Positions 16,328 to 56,015 of a stretch of 64,000 nucleotides of DNA are shown here, one piece after another. The first letter of the stretch is position 1. Every line of letters starts with the position of its first letter. The position numbers and the translations under genes were made by a program. The notes beneath the pieces are model-generated. The model was not told the origin of the DNA, made no database searches, and saw nothing but the letters and a program-made list of their open reading frames with translations. Location of the stretch: positions 1 to 64,000 of the forward strand of contig CAIYIS010000048.1 of the NCBI GenBank assembly GCA_903926385.1, read 5' to 3'. The stretch comes from an uncultured Bacteroidota bacterium. GTDB lineage: Bacteria; Bacteroidota; Bacteroidia; 2-12-FULL-35-15.

Positions 16328-16407
16328 TATAACTATCCAAGCTCAATCATGAAATCTATTATCTCAAATCTCATTTCTCAAATCTGTTTACTTTCCAACT
16401 TTAAGTT

Positions 16408-36311: not shown

Positions 36312-36581
36312 AATTCATTCCACTTATCTTTTTCGCTAATGTTGGTGTTCTGAAATAGAGAGATAAAGCAAGCCTTTACAGGTGTTTTTTCAATTGCAAA
36401 CTAAAGAAGCGGAGAAATATTTAACACCTTATCTGTTTGTTGGTAAAAATACTAAGAAAGGCTAAATAGATATTCTATTCATTTGCATCAATTATTCGAA
36501 TCTGCAGCTGTTCTTTGAGTTTTGAAAAGTAAATTTTGAAGGAAAAAGGGGGAGAATTTTGTTTTATATACCTTCAAACGT

Positions 36582-36884
36582 GTGACGGTATATAAAAATG
36601 AATTTTTACTCACATCCATACGTATGGATGTATATAAAAATGAGTTTCTGCTCACCTCATCAGATGTGGAGGTGTATAAAAATGAGTTTTTGCTCACCTT
36701 ACCAGATGTGGAGGTGTATAAAAATGAGTTTTTGCTCACCTTACCAGATGTGGAGGTGTATAAAAATGAATTTTTGCTCACCTTACCAGATGTGGAGGTA
36801 TATAAAAATGAATTTTTGCTCACCTTACCAGATGTGGAGGTGTATAAAAATGAATTTTGCTCACCTTACCAGATGTGCAGCTAA
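36582..36884 (+). CDS. Candidate repeat ORF (VYKNEFLLTLPDVE)n, coding status unproven
   Basis: Open through all repeats; substitutions in the VYKNEFLLT core are all synonymous in this frame; the antisense frame is also open. Confidence 0.3.
   Translation: MTVYKNEFLLTSIRMDVYKNEFLLTSSDVEVYKNEFLLTLPDVEVYKNEFLLTLPDVEVYKNEFLLTLPDVEVYKNEFLLTLPDVEVYKNEFCSPYQMCS
36588..36880 (+). repeat. 42-bp tandem array (7 units), array 2
   Basis: Units start 36588, 36630, 36672, 36714, 36756, 36798, 36840; consensus GTGTATAAAAATGAGTTTTTGCTCACCTTACCAGATGTGGAG; last unit has 1-bp deletion. Confidence 0.97.
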
Positions 36885-36921
36885 ACAATAATACATAAAC
36901 TAAACTAATTAACTATCACCG

Positions 36922-36948: not shown

Positions 36949-37112
36949 TGTATTAAAGTAAGTTATACTTAAACTCTGAAGATTAACATTAATGTTAGCA
37001 AAGCTTACAAATAAAGTAAATACTAAGCTCTGCCACTAATGATTGACTAATGCTTCTCTCAAACACCTTCGCGTCTTGGTGCCTTTGTGGCTAACTTTTC
37101 CCGTCTCTCAAT

Positions 37113-37147
37113 TTGAAATCTGAAATCTGAAATCTGAAATCTGAAAT
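37113..37147. repeat. 7-bp microsatellite-like repeat (GAAATCT)n
   Basis: tttGAAATCTGAAATCTGAAATCTGAAATCTGAAATCcc. Confidence 0.85.
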
Positions 37148-37150
37148 CCC

Positions 37151-54493: not shown

Positions 54494-55438
54494 CTAAAAC
54501 TCCATAGTGTAAGAGGCCGAAATGGTGGTCATGTTTTTTATTTGCACCACCCGATGGGCCCAGTTACCTGCATCCGGAAATGTAATGATAGTAGGCACGT
54601 TGGCCGGCACGTTTACACCTATTGGTTTTAAAGGGTTTTTAGCACTATCTATTACCCACACTTTACAATCTTGAGTGGCTGTAACTGTAAACAAACTGCT
54701 GGTTGTGAAGTTATGTTTTAAAGCAGTTTTTATTTTCGAACCATGCACAGTGCCTGTGTAAGTGCTGCTATGAGGGTGTCGTTGCAAATTGATAACATCA
54801 ATAAAGCTTTCAATTTTGCTGGGGTTATCATAATATTTAGATATTACAATGCCATGGTCGCAAAAATGCGCACTGCACATAGCAGCAATGGCCGCACGTT
54901 GCGCCCCTGTTAGTCCCGAAATGGTAGATTTTTTGCCCAACTGTGCATTTCGTTTTGCAAGCAAAGCATTGTAACGAGTAGTAATTAGTGCCGACACAGC
55001 ATTTAAGGTGCCTTTAGCCAATGTGGCTGCTGCCAATGTTTTCATGGCTTCTATTTTCACATCAATTTTTCCTTTTAAAATGGTGTCTGTTCCGGCAGGG
55101 AAAAGCCCTTTAAAAGTGGCACTTCTGCGAGGATACACATTCGAAATCATGGTTTGCCACAAGGGCAATTCATCGGTACGAATGGTTTTAAATTGGTCTT
55201 CGAGCGAAGCTGTATCGGTTATACGGCCGCCTACAGCCACATCTTTGCTTACATCGGCAGCCACCAAGTTATTATGTAATGTTTGAAAAATAGTTTCGCG
55301 AGCAGCTATGTCGGCATCTGCATTGTTTGCAGTTAAAGCATTGAGATGAAACTCCGAAATAATTAATGCTTTTGTGTAATTATCGCCAACACCATTTGCG
55401 ATAAAATTTTTTGAAAACGGAAAAGTAGATGCGCTCAT
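54494..55438 (-). CDS. Hypothetical protein
   Basis: Long ORF with coherent composition (MSASTFPFSKNFIANGVGDNYTKALIISEFHLNALTANNADADIAARETIFQTLHNNLV...). Confidence 0.7.
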   Translation of the reverse strand: MSASTFPFSKNFIANGVGDNYTKALIISEFHLNALTANNADADIAARETIFQTLHNNLVAADVSKDVAVGGRITDTASLEDQFKTIRTDELPLWQTMISNVYPRRSATFKGLFPAGTDTILKGKIDVKIEAMKTLAAATLAKGTLNAVSALITTRYNALLAKRNAQLGKKSTISGLTGAQRAAIAAMCSAHFCDHGIVISKYYDNPSKIESFIDVINLQRHPHSSTYTGTVHGSKIKTALKHNFTTSSLFTVTATQDCKVWVIDSAKNPLKPIGVNVPANVPTIITFPDAGNWAHRVVQIKNMTTISASYTMEF

Positions 55439-55699
55439 TTTGTTTCGGTATTTGTGGTTCTTTTTTTTTATTGTTGCAAAACCATTTGCTTGTCAAAATT
55501 ATTTTCTTTTTCAAAAAAAATAAAAACATTTATTAAGAAATTTCATGAAAATTGATAACAATCATAATTCGTCCGGATTAGTAAGGTTCAAGCCATTTTA
55601 TAGATTTTAAACTTTTCTGTTTGTTCAAAATATTGATAATTAATTAAAACGAATATTTTTATTGAACAAGAACGAAAGCTATTGTCATATTATTTTAGT

Positions 55700-55905
55700 T
55701 TGGAATATCATGTATGCTTACATGCCATGCGGGGGATTTATTTATCATTTCATGTAACCTTACATGCTATACCGGGGATTTATTTACTATAACATGTAAC
55801 CTTACATGTTATATGGGGGATTTATTTGCCATCGCATGTAAGCTTACATGCAGTATCGGGGAATTATTTACTATCACATGTAAGCTTACATGCAGTATGG
55901 GGCAT
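55700..55905. repeat. 42-bp tandem array with palindromic core (about 5 units), array 3
   Basis: Unit ATCATTTCATGTAACCTTACATGCTATACCGGGGATTTATTT; cores CATGTATGCTTACATG, CATGTAACCTTACATG (x2), CATGTAAGCTTACATG (x2). Confidence 0.92.
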
Positions 55906-56015
55906 TTAATTTATAGGTTAAGTATTCAATTTGATTCGATAAAATTAAATAAGGGGCCATTACCCCTCTAAAAATTGACTCTTAACCAATCAATTTTGCT
56001 TGCTCATTTCCCAAA

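Follow-up and report, generated by a model that had tools for sequence, protein, structure and literature searches.

A tandem array with a 42-bp step and an orphan gene form a two-part cassette recurring in uncultured Bacteroidota

Array 3 and its neighbouring genes

The window analysed here is a stretch of 64,000 nucleotides from the genome of an uncultured Bacteroidota bacterium. It contains a tandem array, array 3 (55705-55914, unstranded), of five 42-bp units, each made up of a 16-bp palindrome or near-palindrome and a 26-bp spacer with a conserved GGGGATTTATTT. The array sits 267 bp upstream of an orphan gene on the minus strand (54494-55438), which encodes a protein of 314 amino acids belonging to a family that we call F, and it stands at the head of this gene. 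The other neighbours at the locus are an S41 protease and a TPR protein. In genome G012, the S41 protease/TPR slot (L132:10913-11745) holds a different orphan gene of 227 amino acids, with a short 21-bp array after, not before, the gene.

The first-pass annotation of this DNA had described a five-unit ladder of palindromes at 42-bp spacing, and we confirmed this description: CATGTA(A/T)NCTTACATG is present in all five units, at steps of exactly 42 bp. The palindromes of units 4 (55835-55850) and 5 (55877-55892), both CATGTAAGCTTACATG, are perfect over 16 bp. Those of units 2 (55751-55766) and 3 (55793-55808), both CATGTAACCTTACATG, keep 7-bp arms (12 bp in unit 3 when the flanks TATAACATGTAA/TTACATGTTATA are counted), and that of unit 1 (55709-55724; CATGTATGCTTACATG) has one mismatch in the arm. 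An unbroken arm of 8 bp or more arose in 0.4% of shuffles of the array 3 unit. Comparing the copies, we found that 14 of the 16 palindrome columns are invariant, versus 11 of the remaining 26 (Fisher p=0.0045, or p=0.042 once the frayed last spacer is left out). Between the palindromes, GGGGATTTATTT forms a second conserved block (55732-55743, and at the corresponding position of every unit), which is asymmetric. The array recognised at first pass is thus real, but this block, the adjacent gene and the wider class of arrays described below were missing from that account.

Searching the 4.27-Mb genome for the array 3 motif with at most one mismatch returned copies in array 3 and a single match elsewhere (C60, one mismatch), which lies within an aminotransferase-like coding region and is attributable to chance; the motif is therefore not background scatter. 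No DNA similar to array 3 was found in 35 same-genus genomes, in phages or in plasmids. An open frame (55714-55971) runs across array 3 and has no Pfam match. We do not regard it as a credible gene, nor the arrays as coding tandem repeats: 9 of 54 sampled arrays are frameless, and steps of 41 and 62 bp break the frame. Open frames across arrays are in modest excess over shuffles (105 versus 72). These observations support the earlier view of array 3 as a DNA element rather than a coding repeat.

Family F proteins are about 315 amino acids long and have no relative in Pfam, NCBIfam, PADLOC or PDB. None of 29 F proteins matched the PADLOC anti-phage defence models, and the PHROGs matches of the window protein were weak and uninformative as to function. 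A mobile element or phage was rejected, as we found no phage, plasmid or viral-contig relatives of the array DNA or the F gene. A single-sequence AlphaFold2 model of the window protein, made without a deep alignment, had a mean pLDDT of 38, which is too poor for a fold search; the same model predicts, at low confidence, helical structure at residues 17-216 and beta structure at residues 226-313. F proteins contain no recognisable DNA-binding domain, and their isoelectric points span 4.6 to 10. Among 36 same-genus genomes, 9 contain relatives of F, and a 29-sequence profile (A1) picked up the family in 21 of the 288 Bacteroidia genomes that we sampled, spread over eight taxonomic families, with one genome sampled per species. 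Most F-bearing relatives are metagenome-assembled genomes, and F copy numbers per genome are to be read as 'at least' values, with seven candidates at most scored in each.

Arrays upstream of family F genes

We collected 47 non-redundant F loci, each with at least 300 bp of upstream sequence. At 40 of them, a tandem array with a period of 42 bp (36 loci) or 41 bp (4 loci) lies no more than 420 bp upstream of the start codon; at one locus the array is downstream instead. By comparison, any 21n-type array lies within 400 bp upstream of 56 of 916 background genes (6%; Fisher p=6e-37, with loci in one genome not fully independent). In four of the seven F loci without a detected array (L198, L213, L201 and L222), self-similarity peaks at lag 42 or 84 (0.58-0.64), and a fifth, L189, gives a marginal periodicity signal (0.48), so that periodicity is absent only in two remote members of the family. 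The association is also found outside the genus of the window (f4, f10, f17 and f70) and spans unit G+C contents of 17-64%. The array and the F gene constitute a two-part cassette that recurs in many uncultured Bacteroidota.

Across F loci, the 42-bp step and the place upstream of the orphan gene are kept, whereas the letters are not. The best pairwise unit identity between F loci has a median of 18/42, and shuffled units also reach 18/42; about 7% of F unit pairs lie above the 99th percentile of the null, and some of these pairs are close paralogues. It had been proposed from array 3 that the feature being kept is the nucleotide palindrome. Inside array 3 this stands, with the arms preferentially conserved, but the letters differ completely across F loci, and the arm sequence conservation that the proposal implied for related arrays was not found, unit identity being at the shuffled level.

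At F loci, array and start codon are separated by about 26 to 370 bp, and a few arrays touch the start. The Bacteroidetes -33/-7 promoter consensus was seen in 2 of 30 loci, and we saw no consistent promoter position relative to the arrays across F loci. Because the distance is variable, a position-tolerant nucleoprotein complex would suit the arrays better than a precisely placed operator.

Dyad symmetry is common among arrays but not universal, with 20 of 59 arrays carrying dyads at p<0.05 by arm score. For 42-bp units, a second-best dyad centre exactly 21 bp from the first ranked below 0.1 in 19 of 26 arrays, several of which are homologous and therefore not independent. Under a strict, composition-shuffled null the excess is modest: of 34 F units, p fell below 0.05 in 5 for the dyad (combined p=0.005) and in 6 for the second centre (combined p=0.0005). 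The palindrome does not extend from array 3 to a general rule; dyad symmetry is only moderately enriched, and it is step and position that are kept instead.

The palindromic nature of many units would be expected if the array were transcribed into a leader RNA of regular hairpins that governs translation or stability of the F message, and at several loci only 37-52 bp separate the end of the array from the start codon, which leaves little room for a promoter. At other loci, however, 170-370 bp lie between array and gene, and dyads are missing in many arrays. No Rfam match reached the gathering score; the best scores were far below it, and we rejected a known RNA on this basis. Compensatory covariation was not found within arrays either, the complementary share of double changes being 0.37 in dyads and 0.36-0.43 in controls. 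When homologous arrays were compared, pairing was retained in 29 of 45 cases in which both mirrored positions of a pair had changed, in comparisons that are not independent. We consider a leader RNA very unlikely and rejected a base-paired hairpin or cruciform for want of covariation within arrays. Since dyads have no complementary excess, independent half-sites for a dimer fit them better than base-paired hairpins. Judged from its sequence, a platform to which dimers would bind cooperatively is the leading reading of the palindrome array.

Array classes, gene families and sequence turnover

Using TRF and k-mer spacing, we counted 44 arrays in 843 kb of the genome to which the window belongs, or about one per 19 kb, a count that varies with TRF thresholds. 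Their periods are 21, 42, 63, 84, 105 or 126 bp, with one sequence family at 41/62/103, and their sequences are mostly unrelated to one another. Nearly all of the 21n arrays lie between genes; tandem repeats of other periods are mostly inside genes. Many arrays (for example, L052-L111) adjoin orphan genes of 200-330 amino acids and others have no such gene nearby. Several array families are dispersed, such as TTATTCGAGTCCGAATAATCA at C45, C81, C53, C2 and C57. Two related arrays (L063:627-1114 and L095:11444-11718) have a step of 20.6 bp (41/62/103), homologous flanks and no adjoining orphan gene; this step is not a multiple of three, which excludes a reading-frame effect there. A comparable set of arrays is present in the same-genus genomes G034, G032 and G023 and was not seen in G014, G001, G018, G005, G013, G017 and G030, also of the same genus. 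Short-unit tracts such as (AATCTGA)n, found in the window at 37110-37148 and 16352-16385, are seemingly a separate and common phenomenon.

A step of 42 bp corresponds to four helical turns and one of 21 bp to two, in support of the integral helical spacing that the first-pass annotation had suggested. Plain helix-face phasing was rejected, as neither 31/32 nor 52/53 bp stands out as a spacing in this genome, G034 or G032, and so was a plain reading-frame constraint, as other multiples of 3 are not prominent outside coding repeats.

The step follows the neighbouring gene family: it is 42 or 41 bp for F and 21 bp for two others. These two further orphan families lie beside arrays in the same genome (L102, 302 amino acids; L093, 210 amino acids, with an fn3 match at its C-terminus, E=7e-6), and arrays are upstream of them in most relatives. 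The minimal period is 21 in 11 of 12 arrays before genes of the L102 and L093 families and in 0 of 40 F arrays (p=2e-10). Examples of upstream 21-bp arrays in the 302-amino-acid family are found at L102:15863-17339, L090:335-1788 and L265. One member of this family, in the otherwise nearly array-free genome G014, carries a 42-bp array. Of all the observations, this dependence on gene family points most strongly to a step set by the gene product or by something linked to it.

Comparisons between related cassettes revealed duplication, loss and turnover. In the L197 (C18) and L204 (C30:22411) cassettes, homology extends for 1555 bp, starting about 150 bp ahead of the array and continuing through the gene; we saw no second conserved gene there. 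Their arrays comprise 5.5 and 6.5 units, respectively. Such differences in copy number between homologous cassettes, and the multicopy, divergent character of F, which contingency loci can share, would be consistent with a phase-variation switch in which gain or loss of 42-bp units tunes the adjacent gene. Additions of whole turns, however, would not alter operator phasing, and we hold such a switch to be highly improbable.

A second 42-bp array in the window, array 2 (36587-36877, unstranded), has 39/42 unit identity to the L204 array. Its 5' flank (36462-36586, unstranded) and that of the L204 array are homologous, and array 2 is followed by a remnant of an F leader (36878-36918, plus strand). 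The homology ends at the L204 start codon, so the F gene itself is absent there. On this alignment array 2 is an orphan array, whose cassette has lost its gene. Elsewhere in the genome, L109 pairs an array with a truncated gene related to that of L062, as identified by DNA homology.

The closest paralogue of the window F gene, at C56, encodes a protein that is 78% identical. The two have in common the gene and 141 bp of leader, which in the window is the F gene 5' leader at 55439-55580 on the minus strand; the DNA homology excludes the array. The C56 array is unrelated to array 3, with 42 bp per unit, a 16-bp dyad CAACAATGCGTTGTTG and a similar distance of 273 bp. The letters of the array thus change much more quickly than the gene does, but its step and position are retained.

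Eukaryotic satellite DNA likewise keeps its unit length while its sequence turns over rapidly. Unlike such satellites, the arrays described here are bacterial and intergenic, have 3-8 units and are tied to one gene. The complete turnover of array sequence between close paralogues, the variable copy number and the many arrays without a gene could all arise from a functionless, fast-turnover satellite, in which slippage or unequal exchange amplifies 42-bp units at mutational hot spots beside young, fast-evolving genes. Slippage alone, however, would not fix 42 or 41 bp before F in several families and 21 bp before others, nor would it favour upstream placement (40 versus 1 downstream), and conservation inside array 3 is uneven. 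We regard a functionless satellite as unlikely.

Candidate binders and known repeat systems

The recurrence of the cassette suggests an undescribed DNA-recognition or control device. The cassette runs from a flank of about 150 bp through the 42-bp-step array and a short leader to one orphan F gene, with the array as its putative cis-acting head. Proteins would assemble on the array at intervals of two or four turns, and this assembly would serve the adjacent gene. Our preferred reading, held at even odds, makes the array a multi-site DNA-binding platform: a protein would assemble on it cooperatively every four helical turns and control or mark the adjacent gene. The modest dyad excess under the strict null and the varying distance to the start codon, with no consistent promoter position, speak against this reading.

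The likeliest single binder may be the cassette's own product, with a separate regulator as the alternative, although this choice is a tentative one. The F product is the simplest candidate because the step tracks the neighbouring gene family while the letters differ by locus, and because the cassette has no second conserved gene. In its fullest form, which is tentative and on the doubtful side, each orphan protein would assemble on the array before its own gene, the family setting the step and the recognition letters diverging freely. Such self-recognition, if true, would give each copy a private address, with even paralogues that are 78% identical using unrelated arrays. Its logic would be akin to that of plasmid incompatibility, run many times per genome.

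The range of isoelectric points and the missing DNA-binding domain are real objections to F as the binder; such a range is unlike that of a family of sequence-specific DNA binders. Moreover, the closest paralogue has an unrelated array, so the specificity of the binder would need to change very fast. These features of F would be accommodated if a separate and perhaps global protein bound the array geometry, or many specific regulators bound the arrays, and silenced or activated the orphan genes. The 21-bp base step common to arrays of different families and the persistence of orphan arrays without a gene also point this way. However, the step varies by gene family within one genome, the cassette showed no conserved gene for a regulator, and a single protein would need to tolerate almost any sequence. 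We find a separate binder rather doubtful.

We compared the cassette with known repeat systems. The sopC (parS_F) site of the F plasmid consists of twelve 43-bp repeats with ten 16-bp inverted repeats and is bound by ParB_F (SopB) (PMC6238139). Array 3 is similarly tandem, at a near-equal step and with 16-bp palindromes. Unlike sopC, the arrays described here lie on bacterial genome contigs, are multicopy and vary in their letters by locus; their neighbour is an orphan gene rather than ParA/ParB, and their step is 42/41 or 21 bp by gene family. A ParABS centromere was rejected, given that the neighbours are F, the S41 protease and the TPR protein rather than ParA or ParB, and that the arrays are multicopy, with no plasmid or phage match. 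In the parC sites of ParMRC systems, repeat sequence and spacing vary by family and ParR binds only its cognate array; pSK41 parC has 20-bp repeats (PMC9426499). As in parC, direct repeats lie upstream of a gene in F cassettes. Unlike in ParMRC, the F protein is about 315 amino acids long with a predicted beta-rich C-terminal part, and there are many loci per genome. We also rejected a parC/ParR system, as actin-like ParM and ribbon-helix-helix ParR are absent, F having no Pfam or NCBIfam model and the other neighbours being S41 and TPR proteins. By this analogy the F cassette would work most like sopC or parC arrays, yet it is not a member of either group.

Plasmid iterons (direct repeats of about 22 bp) were rejected, as there is no Rep-like neighbour and the arrays are multicopy in the genome. 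A CRISPR array was also rejected, since the 26-bp segments between the palindromes are themselves repeated and are not unique spacers. Direct repeats of the heptamer TAACTGA form many intergenic arrays, often upstream of genes, in Beggiatoaceae, Cyanobacteria and some Bacteroidetes (PMC4679880). Those repeats have one fixed 7-bp sequence, whereas in F arrays the step is fixed, the sequence is free and the partner is a particular gene family. We found no description of such cassettes in the open-access PMC literature. The cassette thus appears to be undescribed, and its novelty is provisional.

Non-coding elements are usually found through conserved sequence or RNA structure. Because neither is conserved here, and only step and position are, the class would be invisible to ordinary comparative genomics. 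Should the arrays prove to lack a function, they would be a remarkable example of mutation that proceeds in quanta of whole helical turns. If the cassette is confirmed as a DNA-recognition or control device, it would open a way into several families of functionally uncharacterised proteins across the Bacteroidota, and would offer a natural set of protein–DNA arrays, many in one cell, that are related yet differently addressed.
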